Assembly (NCBI RefSeq): GCF_001570405.1
Contig: NZ_BBYM01000015.1
Coordinates: 42,274 to 106,273, forward strand
From: Microtetraspora niveoalba
GTDB lineage: Bacteria; Actinomycetota; Actinomycetes; Streptosporangiales; Streptosporangiaceae
Direction of reading: 5' to 3'
DNA length: 64,000 bases
Numbering within the stretch: position 1 is the first letter of the stretch; each line of letters begins with the position of its first letter. Below the pieces are notes generated by a model. It worked only from the letters and a program-made list of their open reading frames with translations. It had not been told where the DNA came from and did no database searches. This document shows positions 43,834 through 53,997 of this stretch, piece by piece. The translations under genes were made by a program, and so were the position numbers.

Positions 43834-46800
43834 TCACCGGCCTTTCCAGAAGGGGCGGCGTTCGGAGCGTCGCCCCTTTCCACTGGGCGGCTCCTGAGCG
43901 GCACCGTCCGGCTCCCCGGCGGCCTGTGCTTCCGCGGCGGTGCCCCGGCTCCCGGCGGTGCCTGCTTCCCCGGCGGCGCCTTGCTCCCCAGCGGCCTGTG
44001 CTTCCGCGGCCGGGCTGTCGGAGAACGGGGAGCCGGGCACCTCTGCCGGCGAGGCACCGGAAAGCCGCGCCAGGAGCTCGACGGCCCGCCGCCACAGGTC
44101 GGCGAGGCCGACGTCGGCCCGCTCGGCCCGATCGAGCGCCTCCGCCAGGGCGGCCAGCTCGGCATGGCCGCCGATCATGTGATCGAGCACGCGCAGGCGG
44201 CTGGCGAGATCCGCCAGGTACCGCCGGCGAGCCGGCTCCGGGGACGTCTCCATGTCCCGCAGCCGCCGCAACTCCTCGGCCAGTTGCGGCCTGATGCCGT
44301 CGAGGGTCGTCGTCGGCGCGGTTGCGCCGCCGGGCGACCACCCCGGGGCGCCGCCCGTGAACCCTCTGCCCGGCCGAGGCGGCCGTGACGACGGGGCGGC
44401 GGCGGGCCCTCCCCCCGAGACCGGCCCGGAGGCGCGGCGACGTTCCCGGGGAGCCGGCCCGGATCCCGGTACGGCCGGCCCTGCGGGCATCGCTCCCGGC
44501 GTCGACGGCGGCGCCGGCGCGGGGGAGGGCGCCGCCGGCGGCGGGCTGATCCCGTTGTCCGCCCAGGCCAGGGGGGCGTCCGGGGGACCAGCCGGTGCGG
44601 AAGGAGGCGCGGACAAGAAGGCCATGGTCGTCATGGCGGACGTCATGACGGGCTGGGGCGGCTCCCAGCCGCTGGGCAGTTCGACCGGCTGGATCACATG
44701 ATGCTCCGGCTCGCCACCGGCGACCACGCGGGTGTCCACCGCGACGAACGCGGTGAACCGGCAGAGCACGCCGAAACGCAGTGACGTCTCGACGATGTCG
44801 TGCTCCAGCGACCGGTCGCCCACGGCGTACCGGTCCTCGAGGGCGCGTACGTGGGCCCGTGCCCACACTGCGCGCACGGCGCCTCCCTCGGCGGCGCCCG
44901 TCACGGCGACGGCGGGCACCCGCGTCTCCCACGGGCGTCCGTCCGAGGTCAGGCCCTGTACGGTCAACGCCTGCCGATCGTCCACGAGCTGTCCGGACGA
45001 GGTCCGGTCTCCCGCCGTGCCGCCAGGGGAGGCGGAACCCTCAGCCGCGTCACCTGTGCCGGACCGGGGGACCCGCCGGGGCTCTTCGGCGGGCGCGCAG
45101 GCGCGATAACGCCCGGAGACCACCAGCGGAACGCCGGGGTAGAGCGAGCCGGCGTGCGTCACCGTGCCCGGGATCAGGTCGAACCCGTCGGCCCGGACCG
45201 AGAGGCCGGTCACCAGAGGTGAGCCGATCCGGCGGTGGATGTGCTCCATCGCCTCGTCCAGGCGGTCCTCCGACTCGACCAGCTCGCACCGTCCGGAGCC
45301 GAGGAGCGCCAATCTGCCGAGGAACCCGGCGTTCACCGCCCGGTCGATCCCGACGGCGTGGACCCGGACGCCGCTCAGTCGCGCGCCGGTCCGCTCCAGG
45401 ATCTGGTCCTCGTTGCCGACCTGACCATCGGTGACCAGCACGAGCACCCGATCGCGTGACCCGGCGGGCGCGGAGGTGCGCCCGTGCGGACCACCGCCGG
45501 CCGCCTCGCCGGGCAGGGCCGCATCGATCTGATCGACGGCCTCGCCGTGACCGTTCTCGTCCGGGGCGTGATGCTCCGGCGGCGACGCGGATTCCGGCCC
45601 CTGGCCGGGGAAGTGGTCAGGGGAACGGCCGGACACCGGACGGCCGAACGGCGAATGCTGGAGATCCGGCCGGTCGGGCGGTGGGGGAGCCGAGCCGTCC
45701 AGCAGACGCAGCGCCTCCTCCAGCGGGGCGAGGATCTCGGTGCCGCCCCGCGCTTCCACCCGGCACAGATGCTCGATCGCGCGATAGCGGTTGCGGTCGG
45801 TGGCCGGTGTGAGCCCGCCGGAGAAGGCCCGCTCGATCGTCGAGTCGAACGCGAGCACGGCGAATCTGTCCCGGGCGGTCAGTGTGTCCACGATGCGCGC
45901 CGCGGCGCGCCGGGCGGCGACCATCTTCCAGCCGGCCATGCTGCCCGAACGGTCGAGCAGGAGGACGACGTCCCGCGGAGCGGTCTCGGCCGGCGGGTCC
46001 GCGGGCGGGACGACGGTCAGCGTGAACGTGCCCTCACCGGGTGACGGCTCGATCGCCACGCCTGCGTCCGGCGTTCCCGCGGTGCCGGGTTCGGTCGCGA
46101 TGCCCTGGTCGGACGCGTGCGCGTCTTCCGAGCCGGCAGGGGTCCCGATGGAGCCGGCCGGAGTCCCGGTGGGCGGCGGCTCCGACGGCCGGCCCGCGGG
46201 CGGCACCGCGACGGCAGGGGGCCGGGCGGCGGAGTCGGGGACGAGGGCCAGGGACGTGGACGGGGCGAAGGCGAATCGCAGGATGAAGTCGCGATCCAGG
46301 CGCTCTCCCGGCACCAGGCTGATGCTGTTCCCCTCGCGGGCGACCTCGTGCAGGCTGGATCGGATCGCGTCCAGCCGCAGTCCGGCCGGATCGATCGTCG
46401 TCACGAGCGAGAGCCGCACCGGGTTGGGAAATCCGGGCAGGAGCACCGGCGGCGTCACCCGGGAGGCGTCGGGCACCGCGTCCGTGTCCGGCGCGGTGCC
46501 GTCTCCCGCTCGGCCGCCGTCCAGTGGCGTGCCGGGAACGTAGCGCGGCGCCACCACGAGCGGGAAGCGGAACTCGGCCGCCCCGTCCTCGAAGGGGAGG
46601 GGCTGGCTGAGCGTGAGGTGTACCCGTACCCGCTCACCGGCCAGGACGTTGCCGACGCGGACGGTGAACACGTCGGGGCGGTCCTCCTCCGCCATCGCCG
46701 CCCGACGCCCGGCGGCGAGCGCCCGGTCGTAGTCGGCCCTGGCCTGCCCGCGCTCCTTCAGCACGCCGTCGATCACCCGGTTGTCGGCGACCATCCGGAA

Positions 46801-47037
46801 GGCCGTCACGGCGGCGCGCGGCGGCAGCGGGAAGACATAGGTCGCTTCCAGGGTGACGTCGAAGGGGTTGCGGAACCCCTGCGCCATCTCGACGCCGGCC
46901 ACGAGACCCGCGACGCGCGCGGTGATGTCGACGCTCTCCAGCGGAAGGTTGCCCTTCGCCGTTTCCAGCGCGCCGAACCCGGCGTCCGGCAGGGGATGAC
47001 ACTGCTCGGGCGGCAGTGTCGTGATCGGGACAGACAT
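43834..47037 (-). CDS. Large VIT and VWA domain protein
   Basis: A 1067-residue protein. The N-terminal VIT domain (residues about 15-150, with FRNPFDVTLEATYVFPLPPRAAV) is followed by a variable Pro-rich link. A VWA domain starts near residue 355 with the MIDAS motif DVVLLLDRSGSM (D362), plus VLVLVTDGQVGNED. A long Pro/Gly/Ser-rich region follows, then a helical C-terminus with a Lys/Arg-rich end (KGRRSERRPFWKGR). There is no signal peptide, so it is probably cytoplasmic. VIT/VWA proteins of this type (inter-alpha-trypsin inhibitor-like) have no known function in bacteria. It sits 3 nt after merR, has AAGGGAG upstream and is likely controlled by it. Confidence 0.85.
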   Translation of the reverse strand: MSVPITTLPPEQCHPLPDAGFGALETAKGNLPLESVDITARVAGLVAGVEMAQGFRNPFDVTLEATYVFPLPPRAAVTAFRMVADNRVIDGVLKERGQARADYDRALAAGRRAAMAEEDRPDVFTVRVGNVLAGERVRVHLTLSQPLPFEDGAAEFRFPLVVAPRYVPGTPLDGGRAGDGTAPDTDAVPDASRVTPPVLLPGFPNPVRLSLVTTIDPAGLRLDAIRSSLHEVAREGNSISLVPGERLDRDFILRFAFAPSTSLALVPDSAARPPAVAVPPAGRPSEPPPTGTPAGSIGTPAGSEDAHASDQGIATEPGTAGTPDAGVAIEPSPGEGTFTLTVVPPADPPAETAPRDVVLLLDRSGSMAGWKMVAARRAAARIVDTLTARDRFAVLAFDSTIERAFSGGLTPATDRNRYRAIEHLCRVEARGGTEILAPLEEALRLLDGSAPPPPDRPDLQHSPFGRPVSGRSPDHFPGQGPESASPPEHHAPDENGHGEAVDQIDAALPGEAAGGGPHGRTSAPAGSRDRVLVLVTDGQVGNEDQILERTGARLSGVRVHAVGIDRAVNAGFLGRLALLGSGRCELVESEDRLDEAMEHIHRRIGSPLVTGLSVRADGFDLIPGTVTHAGSLYPGVPLVVSGRYRACAPAEEPRRVPRSGTGDAAEGSASPGGTAGDRTSSGQLVDDRQALTVQGLTSDGRPWETRVPAVAVTGAAEGGAVRAVWARAHVRALEDRYAVGDRSLEHDIVETSLRFGVLCRFTAFVAVDTRVVAGGEPEHHVIQPVELPSGWEPPQPVMTSAMTTMAFLSAPPSAPAGPPDAPLAWADNGISPPPAAPSPAPAPPSTPGAMPAGPAVPGSGPAPRERRRASGPVSGGGPAAAPSSRPPRPGRGFTGGAPGWSPGGATAPTTTLDGIRPQLAEELRRLRDMETSPEPARRRYLADLASRLRVLDHMIGGHAELAALAEALDRAERADVGLADLWRRAVELLARLSGASPAEVPGSPFSDSPAAEAQAAGEQGAAGEAGTAGSRGTAAEAQAAGEPDGAAQEPPSGKGRRSERRPFWKGR

Positions 47038-47040
47038 CGG

Positions 47041-47934
47041 TCAGCTCCCTTCGATGGAGGATTCCGGCCGGGCGGCCAGTCCTCTGGCGACGAGGTCGGC
47101 GATGAGGGGGGCGGCCGCCTCACGGAGCGCGGCCAGATCACGGTCGGTGGGCGGGCGCGTCACGCCGTCCAGCATCACGGTCACTCCGGGGGCCAGTCGC
47201 AGGCCGTAGACGAGGTCCGGGCCGACCGAACGCGGCTGGATCGGGTCGGCCGTGTGCCCGGCCCGCGGATCGGCGAGGACGGGAGCACGAGGGGAACCGT
47301 CGGCCCACCGGGCGTCCGCGGCGTGGAGGGGCGTCGAGAGCCTGTCCACCGAGTCGTACGACATCGGTGGGGCGTTCTCGGAGACCGGCGGAGCATGGGA
47401 GACGTCCACCGGCTCCGCCGGGCCTGCTGGGACGGGAGCGGAGGAGCGGCGCGTCCAGAAACGCTCGGCCCGCCCCGCCTGTGCTGCCCGTCCCGCGCTC
47501 GTTGCAGGCGGTGCCGCGAGGGTGTCGGGCGGATCGTTGCCGCGCCCCGGCGGACCGGCGGTGCCGACGGGCGCGGCGATGCCCGGAACCGCTTCCGGCG
47601 CGCTCATCGGCGGCGTGCCTGGGGCCCCCGACAACCCGGCGACGCGTTCCAGCATGCCGTCGGTCGCGCCGGTCAACTCGGTCTGGATGGCCGCGATCGA
47701 CAGGCCCTCGGCCTGTCGGCGTTTGATCGCGACGAGTTGGAGCAGATGGCGCCGGCTGTAGAGGGCGACCCGGCCGCGCCGGGCCAGCGGGGGGTCCAGC
47801 AGGCCGATCGTCGTGTACCACCGGATGAGCCGCGCGTTCGGAACCTCGCGGACCCGCCCGTTGCGCCGCGGCTCGGCACCGAGCAGCGCCGCCGCCTGCT
47901 CGGCCAACTCTCCGATGGTCCACGTCTCGTCCAT
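47041..47934 (-). CDS. MerR-family transcriptional regulator
   Basis: A 297-residue regulator. The N-terminal winged-helix domain (about residues 5-95) reads WTIGELAEQAAALL, LIRWYTTIGLLDPPLARRG and the Y-S-R-R-H-L basic helix. A long disordered Pro/Ala-rich middle and a C-terminal part (PTDRDLAALREAAAPLIADL) follow. No metal-binding cysteines are present. It is the first gene of a two-gene operon with the VIT/VWA protein, and its promoter contains a perfect 11-bp palindrome, so autoregulation is likely. It is divergent from dps. Confidence 0.85.
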   Translation of the reverse strand: MDETWTIGELAEQAAALLGAEPRRNGRVREVPNARLIRWYTTIGLLDPPLARRGRVALYSRRHLLQLVAIKRRQAEGLSIAAIQTELTGATDGMLERVAGLSGAPGTPPMSAPEAVPGIAAPVGTAGPPGRGNDPPDTLAAPPATSAGRAAQAGRAERFWTRRSSAPVPAGPAEPVDVSHAPPVSENAPPMSYDSVDRLSTPLHAADARWADGSPRAPVLADPRAGHTADPIQPRSVGPDLVYGLRLAPGVTVMLDGVTRPPTDRDLAALREAAAPLIADLVARGLAARPESSIEGS

Positions 47935-47971: not shown

Positions 47972-48010
47972 GTTTAGCGGGTGTGGAAGGGGTAGACCTG
48001 CTAGTCCGTT
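47972..48010 (+). promoter_or_regulatory. Candidate stress-sigma promoters of dps
   Basis: Two overlapping candidates are seen. GTTT (47972-47975), 14 nt, then GGGTAG (47990-47995) resembles the SigB-type consensus (GTTT-N14-GGGTAc/t). GGAAG (47985-47989), 18 nt, then GTT (48008-48010) resembles the SigH/SigR/SigE type (GGAA-N18-GTT). Either would fit a stress-induced dps gene. The sequence alone cannot choose. Confidence 0.45.
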
Positions 48011-48048
48011 GTACTGAGGAAGACTCCGATCGAGGGGGAGGTACCTTC

Positions 48049-48516
48049 ATGACCTCGATAAGCAGTCCGCTCTCGCCCGATAACAAGAAGATCGCCACGG
48101 ATTGCCTGCAGGGCGCGCTGGTCGATCTGATCGATCTGTCCCTGGAAGGCAAGCAGGCCCACTGGAACGTCATCGGACGCCACTTCCGTTCGATCCACCT
48201 GCACCTCGACGAGATCGTCGACCTCGCTCGCGAGAGCGCGGACCTCGTCGCGGAGCGTTCGGTGGCGCTCGGAGGCAACCCGGACGGCCGCCCCGGCACC
48301 GTGGCGCGAGACAGTCACGTGACGCGGGTCGACAGCGGCTACGTCGAGGACGGCAAGGTCATCGCGATCTTCACCGATGTGCTCGAGTCGATCATCCGCC
48401 GGATGCGGGAGCGTATCGAAGCGACCGAGAAGCCCGACCCTGTCACGCAGGACCTTCTCATCGGGATCACCCGTGACCTGGAGAAGCACCACTGGATGAT
48501 GCAGGCTCAGCGGTGA
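48049..48516 (+). CDS. dps: Dps-family DNA-binding ferritin
   Basis: A 155-residue miniferritin. It has the inter-subunit ferroxidase residues in GKQAHWNVIGRHFRSIHLHLDE and the DLAERSVALGG region, with the expected four-helix length. Dps proteins store iron, quench peroxide and, in some cases, bind DNA. The ATG has GGGGGAGG upstream. A catalase gene lies 15 kb away, not linked. A stress-sigma promoter is likely (47972-48010). A perfect 15-bp terminator follows. Confidence 0.92.
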   Translation: MTSISSPLSPDNKKIATDCLQGALVDLIDLSLEGKQAHWNVIGRHFRSIHLHLDEIVDLARESADLVAERSVALGGNPDGRPGTVARDSHVTRVDSGYVEDGKVIAIFTDVLESIIRRMRERIEATEKPDPVTQDLLIGITRDLEKHHWMMQAQR

Positions 48517-48678: not shown

Positions 48679-51600
48679 TCACAGGAGCCTGCGGGCGAGA
48701 CCGGCGACGGACGGCAGGCTCGCCAGCAACTCGCGCAGGGCGTCCCATTCCGGGGCGCCTTCGTGCGTTTCACCCGCCCTCGCGTCCTTCGGTGTCGCGC
48801 CCGGCGAGCGTGCGTCCCGCGCCGTCGCGTCCCCTGGCCTTGTGTTCCCTGGCCCCGGCCCGGTCGTGTACGGCGCCGGAAGCGGCGCGTAGGGCACGAG
48901 ACCGCAGCGGGCGAGCGCGTCCGTCCACACCCGTGTGCCGTCCGCGGACGCGGCCCGTTCCAGCACCTCCAGAGCCGTCTCGCCGGAGCCGTTCTCCTTC
49001 GCCAGGGTGGACAGCAGATGCGGCCAGCGGACGGTCAGCGCCGCGACCTTCGCCACAGCGGCGTCACCGGCGCGTTCGGCGCCGGCCAGGCTCTGCCGGT
49101 ATGTCACGAAAGAGTAGAACCTGAAGACGTTCACATAGCGCTTGAGCTGCCGTGGGTTCGCCGGGGACAGGGCGGGAAGCGCGGCCTCGATCGCCCGGTA
49201 GGCGTTCTCGTCGCTGTAGAGATCGTCGTACACGCGGTCGGCCGCGAGCCGCGTCTCCGGCCACAGATCAGGTACGGCCCGGCCGTCCGGCGGCCGCCGG
49301 ACGGCTCCGGATGCGCTTTCGGGCGGCGGGCCGCCGGAGACCGCCGTCTCGTGCGCCGGGTCGGCGGCGAGCGCCTCCTGGGCTTCGCGGGCCGCCGCGT
49401 CCAGCGAGTCGGCGGCCGGCGCGGCGGCGCGGATGGCCGCCTCGAGGAGCCCGACGAGCTCCGGGTCCGGGGAACGCCGTCCGGGGGAGCGGGGCGCGCG
49501 CTCTCGCCGTCCTCCCGCCCCGGCACCCGGCTCGTCGGCGGTTCCCGCCGGGCGACCGGTCGTGTCGCCGGAGTCCGGCCCGGTCCACCCCCAGAATCGC
49601 GCGTCGGCCGGACGGGCGATCCCCAGGGGGCCGCGGTCCCCAGCGCCGTACTCCGGCCACCCGGCCCGGGACGGGGCGGTCCGCCCCCGGCCCGTCCGGG
49701 AGCGTCGAGGTCCTGGAGCGCCCCGTTCCGGGTCCCTGGGCGGCCCGTCCGTGCCGTACGTCTCGAATGAGCCGGTCCACGCCGGTCCGTCCGTGCCCGG
49801 GGTCTCAGAAGTGGCGGTCCATGCCTCCGGGGAGGCGTCCGGGCCGTCCGAACGCGGCCGCCTTGGCGTACGGGGCCGGTCCACGCCGAGCAGCGCGCCG
49901 ACGTATCCGGGCAGGCGGTGGGCGTCGTCCAGCACCGGCAGGCTGAGCGGAAGCTGGACGATCTTCTCCAGGAAACGCCACCCGAGCCCGGAACGCAGGT
50001 CCGGCGGCATGGCCTCCGCGAGATCCTGGTACGCGACCTCGACGTGGGCCGCCACCACGTCCGGCTCCATCGCCAGGACGAAGACGCAGTTCGGGAACTC
50101 CCCGGCGAGGAAGAGGTTGATCGCCTCGATCACCTGGGCGACGGTCCCGGAGCCGCACCGGTCCAGGTCGTCGACGAAGACCACGAGAGGACGCTCCTCG
50201 GTGGCCACCAGCCGCAGCACCCGTCGCATGTCGGTCTGGACGAGGTGCAGGAATCCCGTCTTCGCCCCGTAGCCGGGGTCGCCGACGAGGTCGCCCGCCA
50301 GTCCGGGAGCCGGCCCGAGCAGGTCCGGCGGCCGGATCAGCCCGCCGAACGCCGTGTCCGCCGACTCGGTCAGGAACCGGGCCATCCGTACGGCTCCCGC
50401 CGCGAGCACGCCCATCGAGCCGCACGCGCCGAGCGCGGCCGCGCCCGCGCGCAGGGCCGGGCCGAGAGCGGGCACCAGGACGGCGGCGGCGAGCGAGGCG
50501 CAGGTGAGCACGAGTGTGGCGGCGAGCCCGAGCACGACGGGCGTGAGCCGGGTGATCGCCATCCGGTAGGCCCGCCGCCGTACGGCCTCGCGGTCGACCC
50601 TGGCGAGGTTGAGCTCCAGCCAGAAGCGTTCGCGTTCCACGCGCGGCAACCGGCCGGTGACCTGCGTGATGATCTCGTGCGCGAGCCCCGCCCAGACCTG
50701 CTCGCCGTTCTGGTACATCCACGGGTTGAACCAGACCGTCGGACGCCAGTCGGAGGCGCGCAGAGACGCCCATACCGGCGCGGAGAGTCCGGGGTCCTCG
50801 CGGGCCCGCTCGCCTCCGCGCCGCCGGGCGCGCGAGAGCACCTCGGCGTTGGTCACGCGGGGAGACCCGGGAGCGCCCCGTCCCGTCCGGAGGCGGGCTG
50901 ATCGGCGGCGGCGTCCGGCGCGTTCCGCCGGGGAAGCGGGCCGGGCGAGGTGGATCTCGGCGGGGCTCCCGTTCGCCGCCCCCGGGTCGAGCAGGTCCTG
51001 GACCATGCGCATCAGCGACGTCTTTCCGGTGCCCCAGGGACCCTTGACGCCGATCGTCAGCGGCGGCAGCGACTCGGGATGGCGGATGAAGGCCGCGACG
51101 GCCTCCGCGTAGATCCCGTGCCCGAGCTGGTCGTCCACGGTCCAGCGGTCGGGGGTGAGCCGCGCCCGGGGCCGTACGGCGCGTCCGCCGGCCCGCCACC
51201 GCCGCAGCGTCGCGGAGGCGCGGGCGTGCTCCTCGCGCGTCAGCCGCGCCCGCCCGAGATCCCGTACCGCGGAGTGGGCGGGAAGGCCGCCGGCGTCCAC
51301 GAGCTCCCACGGCGTGCCCAGTTCGGCCAGAGCCTTCACCCCGAGGCCGCCCGCGTCGCCCCGGGGGCCGCTCCCTCTGGAGGCGTCCGCGCCGGGGCCG
51401 TCGGCCGCGTGCCCATGGTCCGCGTGCCCGTGGTCCGCGTGCCCGTGGTCCGCGTGCCCGTGGTCCGCGTGCCCGTGGTCCGCGAGCAGCAGCGCCGCGA
51501 GTTCGGAGGTCAGCGGCTCGCCGTCCTCCAGCAGCGAGGCCAGCCGCAGCAGATCCTGGGCGGCCGGTCCGAGATACACGTCGTAGACCCGGGCCACGAT

Positions 51601-52431
51601 CCCCCGGGCGGTGGACGGGACGGCGGCCTCGCCGCGCCTGCGGAGCTCGTCGGCCGCGGCGAGCAGCTCGCCCGGCACCGCTCCTGCCGCCGCCCGGCCC
51701 GTACGCGCGAGCGGAACGGCGGCCGCGTCGCCGTACACGCTGAGGATGGGACGCAGGCCGCCGTCCGCGCACGCGTCCACGGCGAACCGGTGCAGATCGG
51801 CGACGGTGACCACGCCGTCGCCGTCGGTGTCCGCCGCTCCGGTGAGGAGGCCGTCGGCGATCAGACCGGTGAGCGAGAAGCCGCGGAGCGGCGGGCGCTC
51901 GCCCACCGCCAGGCCGGTCGTCAGCGCCGCCGCCGTGATCGAAGGCTCGCCGCGTACGGGAAGTGCGCTGACGCCGCGCGCCGGGCCCTCCGCGTCCGCG
52001 TCGCCGGGCGCGCTGTCCACGACCCAGCCGAAGTCGACGATCATCACGAGGGCGTCCGCGGCGCAGTCACCCGCGCGGCGGGCGAATCCGCTGATCAGGG
52101 CGGCGAAGTCGCGCGAGGTCCAGCCCTGGCCGGTCGGCCACCGTACGACGAGGAGGTCGCCCTGCTCCGCCGCGTCCAGGAAGCGGGCCAGGTGGTGATG
52201 GTCTTGTGAGCTCCCGCCGGGCACGGACTCCACCGCGTACCCGTTGGCCGCCAGCGCGCCGACGAGCCTGCGCGCCGGCAGGCCGGAACCGGCGCTATCC
52301 GCGCGGCCGGGATCCTCCGGATCTTCGGGGTCGAGGAACACCAGTGCCTTGCGCGCGGGGACCGGACCGTCCGTCGGCTCGACGGCGGGGCGGGCGCCGG
52401 GAACCTGGACGTCTACCGTGCCGTGCCTCAT
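48679..52431 (-). CDS. KAP P-loop NTPase fused to a caspase-like domain lacking catalytic residues
   Basis: A 1250-residue protein. The N-terminal domain (about 28-270) has the shape of bacterial caspase-like domains: RKALVFLDPED, DLLVVRWPTGQG, LVMIVDFGWVVDS and a calcium-loop-like DTDGDGVVTVADL. The His (usually GHG) and the Cys (DxCxSG type) are absent, so it should not cut. Residues about 277-400 look like a winged-helix segment of STAND proteins (LLRLASLLEDGEPLTSELAALLL ... SAVRDLGRARL), interrupted by ADHGH repeats. The KAP NTPase follows, with Walker A GPWGTGKTS (K470), about two to four membrane helices near 625-685, and Walker B VVFVDDLDRC (D754-D755). The C-terminus has NPRQLKRYVNVFRFYSF. 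The start is uncertain (ATG 52431, GTG 52443 or TTG 52476). Confidence 0.8.
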   Translation of the reverse strand: MRHGTVDVQVPGARPAVEPTDGPVPARKALVFLDPEDPEDPGRADSAGSGLPARRLVGALAANGYAVESVPGGSSQDHHHLARFLDAAEQGDLLVVRWPTGQGWTSRDFAALISGFARRAGDCAADALVMIVDFGWVVDSAPGDADAEGPARGVSALPVRGEPSITAAALTTGLAVGERPPLRGFSLTGLIADGLLTGAADTDGDGVVTVADLHRFAVDACADGGLRPILSVYGDAAAVPLARTGRAAAGAVPGELLAAADELRRRGEAAVPSTARGIVARVYDVYLGPAAQDLLRLASLLEDGEPLTSELAALLLADHGHADHGHADHGHADHGHADHGHAADGPGADASRGSGPRGDAGGLGVKALAELGTPWELVDAGGLPAHSAVRDLGRARLTREEHARASATLRRWRAGGRAVRPRARLTPDRWTVDDQLGHGIYAEAVAAFIRHPESLPPLTIGVKGPWGTGKTSLMRMVQDLLDPGAANGSPAEIHLARPASPAERAGRRRRSARLRTGRGAPGSPRVTNAEVLSRARRRGGERAREDPGLSAPVWASLRASDWRPTVWFNPWMYQNGEQVWAGLAHEIITQVTGRLPRVERERFWLELNLARVDREAVRRRAYRMAITRLTPVVLGLAATLVLTCASLAAAVLVPALGPALRAGAAALGACGSMGVLAAGAVRMARFLTESADTAFGGLIRPPDLLGPAPGLAGDLVGDPGYGAKTGFLHLVQTDMRRVLRLVATEERPLVVFVDDLDRCGSGTVAQVIEAINLFLAGEFPNCVFVLAMEPDVVAAHVEVAYQDLAEAMPPDLRSGLGWRFLEKIVQLPLSLPVLDDAHRLPGYVGALLGVDRPRTPRRPRSDGPDASPEAWTATSETPGTDGPAWTGSFETYGTDGPPRDPERGAPGPRRSRTGRGRTAPSRAGWPEYGAGDRGPLGIARPADARFWGWTGPDSGDTTGRPAGTADEPGAGAGGRRERAPRSPGRRSPDPELVGLLEAAIRAAAPAADSLDAAAREAQEALAADPAHETAVSGGPPPESASGAVRRPPDGRAVPDLWPETRLAADRVYDDLYSDENAYRAIEAALPALSPANPRQLKRYVNVFRFYSFVTYRQSLAGAERAGDAAVAKVAALTVRWPHLLSTLAKENGSGETALEVLERAASADGTRVWTDALARCGLVPYAPLPAPYTTGPGPGNTRPGDATARDARSPGATPKDARAGETHEGAPEWDALRELLASLPSVAGLARRLL
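51413..51487 (-). repeat. 15-bp in-frame tandem repeat (ADHGH)n inside the KAP gene
   Basis: Five near-identical 15-bp units encode ADHGH in tandem within the winged-helix-like region (about residues 315-339). Such repeats vary in number by slippage and keep the frame. The His content suggests a flexible or metal-binding tract. Confidence 0.75.
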
Positions 52432-52722: not shown

Positions 52723-53997
52723 ATGTCGCGTCGTACGTCCGTGCGGCCGGAGACGGCCCCCGTGCTGACCGGCCCGTTGTGGCGTTCCGCCTGTGCGGCG
52801 GAGCGGCTCCGGAGGAGGAGCGGCGACCCGCCCGCGCTCCCCGGCGCCCCTGACCCGAGGCCGTACGGGAGCCGCGACACGAGCCCGTACGGGGACCTGG
52901 AGGCGCCGGACCGCAACGGGATCGCCCTGGCGCACGGGTTCACCAGCAGGGTCGTCGGGCGCTCCGGCAGCCGGGTGGGCGGGGTGACCTGGCACGACGC
53001 GCCCGGTGGAGGGGCGTGTTTCCCCGACGGCGACGGATGGATCTACGTGTCCAACTCCGAGGTGCCGCTGCTCGGCGGCGTATCGGCGATCCGGTTCGGC
53101 CCGGACGGGACCATCAGGAGCGGATACCGCATCCTGTCCGGGACGGACCGCAACAGTGCGGGCGGGGCGACCCCCTGGGACACCTGGCTGTCCTGCGAGG
53201 AGACGAGCCGCGGCCGGATCTTCGAGTGCGACCCGTACGGGGAGAGGGCCGCCGTGCCGAGGCTCGCGATGGGCCTGTTCCGGCACGGGGGCGCCGCGTT
53301 CGATCCGGCGAGGACGGCGGTCTACCTGACCGAGGGAGAGCCGGACGGCTGCTTCTACCGCTTCCGGCCGGAGGAGTGGGGCGACCTGACGACCGGCGTC
53401 CTGGAGGTCATGGCGGGCGGCCCGGGGCCGGGGCCGGTCACCTGGCTGCGGGTCCCGCACCCGGCGGCGGCCCACGAGCCGACGCGCGACCAGGTCGAGG
53501 GCGCCCGGCGGTTCGACGGGGGCGGAGGTTGCCACTACTCCGGAGGCTTCTGCTACTTCACCACGGCGGGGGACGGGCGCGTCTGGGCGTACGACGCGGA
53601 GAACGAGTGGATCACCGTCCTCTACGCCGCGCCGCCGCCCCCGCCCGAGCGCGGTCTCCGGCCGGATGACGGCCACGGCGGCGCGGACGACAGCCTGGGC
53701 CAGGGCTCACCCGGCGGTGCGCGCGCCGGACTCGGCCACGACGCCGAGGCGGCGATGGCGGGGCTCGCCGGGGGGCTCTTCGCCGCCGATCGCGACGGGG
53801 ACGCGGAGATGACGATCCTCACGGAGGACGGCACACCGGCGCCGTTCCTGCGTGTCGTGGGCCTCGGCGGCGCCGGGATCACCGGTCCGGCCTTCTCACC
53901 CGACGGCGGCAGGCTCTACTTCTCCTCGCGTCGCGACGCTGAGGGGGAGCCGACGGCGGGCGTCACCTACGAGATCACCGGTCCCTTCCGCGGCTGA
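52723..53997 (+). CDS. PhoX-like phosphatase family protein (DUF839)
   Basis: A 424-residue protein with beta-propeller blades typical of PhoX/DUF839: GGVTWHDAPGGGACF, GWIYVSNSEVPLLGG, NSAGGATPWDTWLSCEE, FRHGGAAFDPARTAVYLTEGEPDGCFYRF and a late GPAFSPDGGRLYFSS. The catalytic Ca-Fe site of PhoX is built from such residues. Unlike most actinobacterial PhoX proteins there is no Tat signal peptide; the N-terminus MSRRTSVRPETAPVLTG is not hydrophobic, so it may be cytoplasmic. Two-thirds of the usual length is present. Confidence 0.8.
   Translation: MSRRTSVRPETAPVLTGPLWRSACAAERLRRRSGDPPALPGAPDPRPYGSRDTSPYGDLEAPDRNGIALAHGFTSRVVGRSGSRVGGVTWHDAPGGGACFPDGDGWIYVSNSEVPLLGGVSAIRFGPDGTIRSGYRILSGTDRNSAGGATPWDTWLSCEETSRGRIFECDPYGERAAVPRLAMGLFRHGGAAFDPARTAVYLTEGEPDGCFYRFRPEEWGDLTTGVLEVMAGGPGPGPVTWLRVPHPAAAHEPTRDQVEGARRFDGGGGCHYSGGFCYFTTAGDGRVWAYDAENEWITVLYAAPPPPPERGLRPDDGHGGADDSLGQGSPGGARAGLGHDAEAAMAGLAGGLFAADRDGDAEMTILTEDGTPAPFLRVVGLGGAGITGPAFSPDGGRLYFSSRRDAEGEPTAGVTYEITGPFRG

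Follow-up and report, generated by a model that had tools for sequence, protein, structure and literature searches.

The window analyzed here is a 64,000-nucleotide stretch of the genome of the soil actinobacterium Microtetraspora niveoalba (contig NZ_BBYM01000015.1, positions 42,274 to 106,273), and it carries on the reverse strand a gene for a 1250-residue protein that joins a predicted caspase fold, a winged-helix-like helical bundle, and a KAP NTPase. The open reading frame, first described in the original prediction from the DNA letters alone, proved to be real, and its orthologues in other Microtetraspora begin at the same start codon (M-x-HGTVD). The best matches of the protein are 39 further Streptosporangiaceae proteins with the same architecture. 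Analysis of this set supported the reading of the N-terminal domain as a dead caspase and showed a modular NTPase that has been inherited vertically and retained throughout its clade. The gene and its parts, in window coordinates, are as follows:

48679..52431, (-) strand: pseudo-caspase/winged-helix-like/KAP NTPase protein, 1250 aa, ATG at 52431; 40 orthologues
51676..52362, (-) strand: predicted caspase fold, residues 24-252, catalytically dead (AlphaFold2, structure comparison, hhalign)
52129..52149, (-) strand: VVRWPTG where strand 3 ends, with the invariant R97 (Arg in 37/37); the His loop of active caspases is missing, as a gap in the alignment
52024..52035, (-) strand: invariant D133-F134-G135-W136 at the place of the DCC(Y/F) active-site motif (37/37 identical)
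51814..51831, (-) strand: DTDGDG EF-hand-like loop, residues 201-206, common with active actinobacterial caspases
51157..51639, (-) strand: winged-helix-like helical bundle, residues ~265-425 (hhalign and helices in the orthologue model)
51016..51042, (-) strand: Walker A GPWGTGKTS, residues 464-472
50332..50562, (-) strand: hydrophobic, putative membrane hairpin, residues ~624-700 (hydropathy; long helices in the model)
50155..50187, (-) strand: Walker B LVVFVDDLDRC, residues 749-759

A Pfam scan of the N-terminal domain gave no caspase match, the sole match being the EF-hand-like loop, and a HMMER search of the PDB likewise missed the caspase fold, so that profile comparison and structure were required. 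The AlphaFold2 model of residues 24-252, built on an alignment of 37 orthologous domains, reached a predicted local distance difference test score (pLDDT) of 83.7 and a predicted template modeling score (pTM) of 0.85. The top structural matches of this model were all caspases: MALT1 (Z 14.5 over 165 residues, 3.2 Å), the caspase-8/c-FLIP(L) complex (Z 14.2), and c-FLIP(L) (Z 13.3). Comparison by hhalign with eleven active caspases of the same bacterial group gave a full-length alignment (98.6%, E 1.1e-15), in which the domain scored 107 and twenty shuffled or reversed versions scored at most 18.6; the alignment persisted when the calcium-loop part was left out (88.4%, E 2.8e-6). Because structure matches, profile match, and controls agree, the caspase fold is well supported as a prediction, and the domain can be placed in the caspase superfamily fold (Peptidase C14). 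The DTDGDG insert, which the original prediction had noticed together with the fold, matches the corresponding loop of active actinobacterial caspases in the profile alignment; it is kept in most orthologues and lost in several Nonomuraea.

Comparison with the active relatives revealed how the catalytic site differs. These relatives carry CHG, within a CHGLKD loop, at the catalytic His and DCC(Y/F) at the catalytic Cys. In all 37 orthologues, Gly replaces the Cys within Asp-Phe-Gly-Trp, and the His loop has no counterpart, appearing as a gap in the alignment. The His-Cys dyad is thus present in 0/37 orthologues, which makes the domain a pseudo-caspase and not a peptidase. The earlier statement that the domain has "no His or Cys" holds for the catalytic positions throughout the set, but the domain in the window does contain four His and two Cys elsewhere. 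Arg97, near the former active site, is invariant (37/37), and together with Asp133 it makes up all the invariant charged residues of the domain. Judged from the alignment, the site pattern looks like replacement, not decay. No intermediate between active and dead forms was found among 20 weak caspase-like loci in the order, nearly all of which, where read, keep His and Cys.

Such a site could also be left by a decaying relic, in which the caspase part would persist neutrally on a KAP protein that still functions, and the lost catalytic residues fit this, as do the loss of the calcium loop in some Nonomuraea and of the winged-helix-like part as well in two of them. However, when Microtetraspora species are compared, the caspase domain has a ratio of nonsynonymous to synonymous substitution rates (dN/dS) of 0.21-0.36, the surroundings of Walker B one of 0.03-0.16, and the linker one of 0.66-0.76; R97 and DFGW are invariant over 37 species, and the frame is open in all orthologues examined. 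The substitution ratios indicate that the gene is under purifying selection, and on these ratios and the residue invariance we rejected the relic explanation, which we regard as extremely improbable. In the two Nonomuraea loci concerned (L035 and L037), the dead caspase and the KAP domain are both kept.

The KAP_NTPase family (PF07693) covers the C-terminal two thirds of the protein (E 5.7e-27, 95.2 bits against a gathering score of 20). Both Walker motifs are intact, and the stretch that separates Walker A (464) from Walker B (749) includes the hydrophobic hairpin, which hydropathy places at ~624-685 and for which it predicts membrane insertion. Family match, motifs, and hydropathy together bear out the NTPase with intervening, predicted membrane helices that had been proposed. 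The STAND-like (signal transduction ATPases with numerous domains) winged helix that had been proposed ahead of it stands in part: the bundle aligns with the helix-turn-helix that follows NB-ARC in sister proteins (hhalign 90%, E 1.6e-6), but the same region of an orthologue model consists of helices throughout (pLDDT about 90), with no beta wing predicted. That model, of the 964-aa Acrocarpospora orthologue, represents the whole protein (pLDDT 79.7); its pTM of 0.57 makes the orientation of the domains unreliable. Its KAP region aligns with RdrA of RADAR (Z 14.2, 237 residues), at 6.2 Å and so as a distant likeness of the AAA+ core only. No caspase part of RdrA was matched, and RADAR has a separate deaminase partner (PMC9994260). 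Within the winged-helix-like region, the gene has a tandem repeat of 15 bp (window 51405-51484; 5.3 copies, 98% match) that codes for repeats of ADHGH. It is not present in the orthologues inspected and is probably a recent expansion.

The pseudo-caspase domain was found in 37/201 sampled genomes of the order, in one family only and in open frames of 942-1881 aa; the genera with the gene are Microtetraspora, Streptosporangium, Acrocarpospora, Sphaerisporangium, Herbidospora, Nonomuraea, and Rhizohabitans. With the KAP region as query and a threshold of E 1e-30, a sample of 148 genomes of the class yielded nothing but the window; threshold and initial filter were probably too strict, and the result is not evidence of absence. 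A tree built on the KAP part places all 40 pseudo-caspase proteins in a single clade (support 99/99), showing a single origin. In more remote KAP relatives, the N-terminal slot is occupied by different modules, identified mostly by Pfam: a Ser/Thr kinase (L041, L048), NB-ARC (L043, L045, L049), an NTPase preceded by a weak TIR match (L044), and a cold-shock domain (L051); the labels TIR-like (L040) and trypsin-like (L050) come from sequence reading, without a Pfam match. An intact dyad in the same architecture, which the original prediction had named as the observation that would count against it, was found only outside the clade, in a frameshifted gene of Phytohabitans flavus (L052; Peptidase_C14 4.1e-13 plus KAP_NTPase). 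This protein shares the architecture of the one in the window but differs in having CHG and DCC intact, in not lying beside phoX/dps, and in falling outside the pseudo-caspase clade, although in the tree both frames of the split gene were joined side by side and sit on a long branch of unsure position. At this locus (L052:4590-7973), a frameshift, either genuine or an assembly error, interrupts the KAP reading frame, and the caspase part is intact.

The genes flanking the NTPase gene in the window are:

43834..47037, (-) strand: VIT-VWA protein adjoining the MerR gene (PF08487 1.8e-32; 32/40 loci)
47041..47934, (-) strand: MerR-type regulator (PF13411 8.5e-10; 35/40 loci)
47983..48516, (+) strand: dps/ferritin-like gene, convergent downstream (PF00210 1.1e-20; 34/40 loci)
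52723..53997, (+) strand: PhoX-like gene, divergent upstream (PF05787 2.3e-20; 28/40 loci)

These counts cover the 40 pseudo-caspase loci, and none of phoX, dps, MerR, and VIT-VWA lies beside any of the 12 sister KAP genes. The convergent dps gene mentioned in the original prediction is not incidental, and a survey of homologues for the missing dyad and for gene neighbors, as it had suggested, found all four neighbors recurring with the dead domain. Comparison with family members that lack the KAP gene revealed the empty site, in which dps directly adjoins phoX within a phoX-dps-MerR-VWA block (L163-L165) or phoX adjoins MerR (L155-L158). Empty sites and fixed synteny fit one insertion followed by vertical inheritance; loss of the gene in some lines may also have occurred. 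Throughout the family, the MerR gene followed by VIT-VWA (window 43834-47934) is conserved beside dps/phoX, whether or not the KAP gene is present.

The synteny could also mean that the protein is a stress or developmental regulator tied to these four neighbors, its ATPase integrating oxidative or phosphate stress and its dead caspase serving as a scaffold, and the cyanobacterial pseudo-orthocaspase SyOC does affect oxidative-stress survival (PMC7889975). However, the neighbor order is unchanged in genomes without the KAP gene, so the synteny may mark the insertion site only, and dps and phoX lie on the opposite strand, which precludes an operon and counts against such a role. We consider it improbable.

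Slightly better placed, though still unlikely, is an anti-phage function carried by this gene alone, as in Tmn/PifA, in which KAP domain and hairpin would be the effector and the dead caspase would sense an infection product. PADLOC matched QatA (2.2e-20) and PifA (1.8e-16) over the KAP parts; Tmn, likewise a KAP NTPase, has two membrane segments and blocks phages (PMC11846954), and KAP can take the place of STAND ATPases in the architectures of bacterial immune proteins (PMC8195603). The KAP core is common to Tmn, PifA, QatA, and the protein studied here, and Tmn also has the two membrane segments; no caspase domain is reported for the three in the parts of the sources available. The PifA match denotes KAP kinship only, and phage blocking would be attributed by analogy. 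The QatA match, at 91.2 bits against a curated NCBIfam cut-off of 600, is far under the threshold, the gene keeps a set place amid housekeeping-type genes in at least seven genera, neither scattered nor island-like, and no effector gene adjoins, as the original prediction had also observed; the flanks are dps, MerR, VIT-VWA, and PhoX. Membership of the Qat system itself was rejected on the score and on the lack of adjacent qatBCD.

The structural match to c-FLIP(L), a likewise catalytically dead caspase fold that pairs with caspase-8, suggests another role, that of a regulator whose dead caspase heterodimerizes with an active caspase and controls it. A Peptidase_C14 match was present in 20/34 searched genomes, which would supply partners there, but it was absent from the remaining 14/34. 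In the host genome, no active caspase was detected with PF00656 or with a custom profile, the latter matching this protein alone, and EACC1 (PF19953), which invariably accompanies the related active caspases, was absent from the host genome and from four searched congeners. The absence of both from the host argues against a dimer partner of that kind. The genome search with PF00656 can miss diverged caspases, as it did a caspase-FtsK protein in G005, so the absence is strong for this caspase type and weaker for caspases generally. Taken together, a c-FLIP-like regulator appears very unlikely. The suggestion in the original prediction that a dead protease might recruit a partner is weakened in its most specific form, in which that partner would be an active caspase. 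The missed protein (L067:1541-6040) is an active caspase fused to an apparent multi-domain FtsK/EccC-like ATPase.

The explanation that we favor, at about even chances, is domestication: a single gene would encode a switch ATPase of the KAP/STAND type that is anchored in the membrane, and its dead caspase would serve for binding or assembly. The KAP domain would bind and hydrolyze ATP, probably assembling into a ring at the membrane, and the winged-helix-like bundle would link it to the N-terminal signaling slot, which in the sisters holds enzymatic or signaling modules (active caspase, Ser/Thr kinase, TIR-like, NB-ARC, cold-shock). The clade's ancestor would have lost the His/Cys dyad in a single event, with the invariant Arg and Asp-Phe-Gly-Trp kept at the former active site, and the dead fold may bind a ligand, a peptide, or a neighboring subunit without cutting. 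That at least seven genera of one family keep the gene, mostly at the same spot, suggests that a once-mobile immune-type protein became fixed. The proposed "sensor or scaffold" function fits this scheme and is still plausible. Three points weigh against it: the ring assembly is only hinted at, because the deviation of the RdrA match is high; the active-site replacement could be structural rather than a ligand site; and the immune (conflict) origin of the KAP-caspase rests, by analogy, on sister architectures and published models. A more specific and doubtful version is that an immune-type receptor was domesticated once and its caspase site rebuilt into a conserved ligand site (Arg and Asp-Phe-Gly-Trp) controlling a membrane ring ATPase. 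If this were true, bacteria would have their own equivalent of the pseudo-caspase regulators of animals, one that operates with no active caspase at all. The role of a non-cutting caspase fold on a switch ATPase is made testable by a natural comparison set, which comprises about 40 dead orthologues, the caspase-KAP sister with its dyad intact, and near relatives in which the chromosomal site is empty.

Dead caspases in bacteria and KAP ATPases in phage defense are already known, and the clade-wide fusion of the two, of which no description was found in the open-access literature searched, is the new element. Pseudo-orthocaspases (PMC6426788; SyOC, PMC7889975) likewise have a p20/caspase fold without the His-Cys dyad. 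Tyr-Ser is their most frequent published variant and occurs mainly in cyanobacteria and alphaproteobacteria, Actinobacteria accounting for only 3/636 (PMC6426788); the present protein, in contrast, has Gly in DFGW for Cys, no His loop, and a KAP fusion. Dead caspases are also common in effector positions of bacterial conflict systems, and about 70% of those fused to a vWA component are inactive (PMC7159879). The caspases of the EACC1-caspase system (Kaur et al. 2020, PMC7159879) share with the present domain the caspase fold and the DxDxDG loop plus helix, and they too place an N-terminal caspase before a variable C-terminal domain in multicellular actinobacteria. The EACC1-type active caspases examined retain His and Cys almost without exception, whereas the present protein is dead and lacks EACC1. 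Assignment to that conflict system was rejected, as the domain is dead and a divergent PhoX-like gene, instead of EACC1, lies 5' of it. At another locus (L077:163-2717), an EACC1 gene (PF19953) is followed by an active caspase that is seemingly fused in a 684-aa frame to a sequence that, read by eye, is electron-transfer-flavoprotein-alpha-like.

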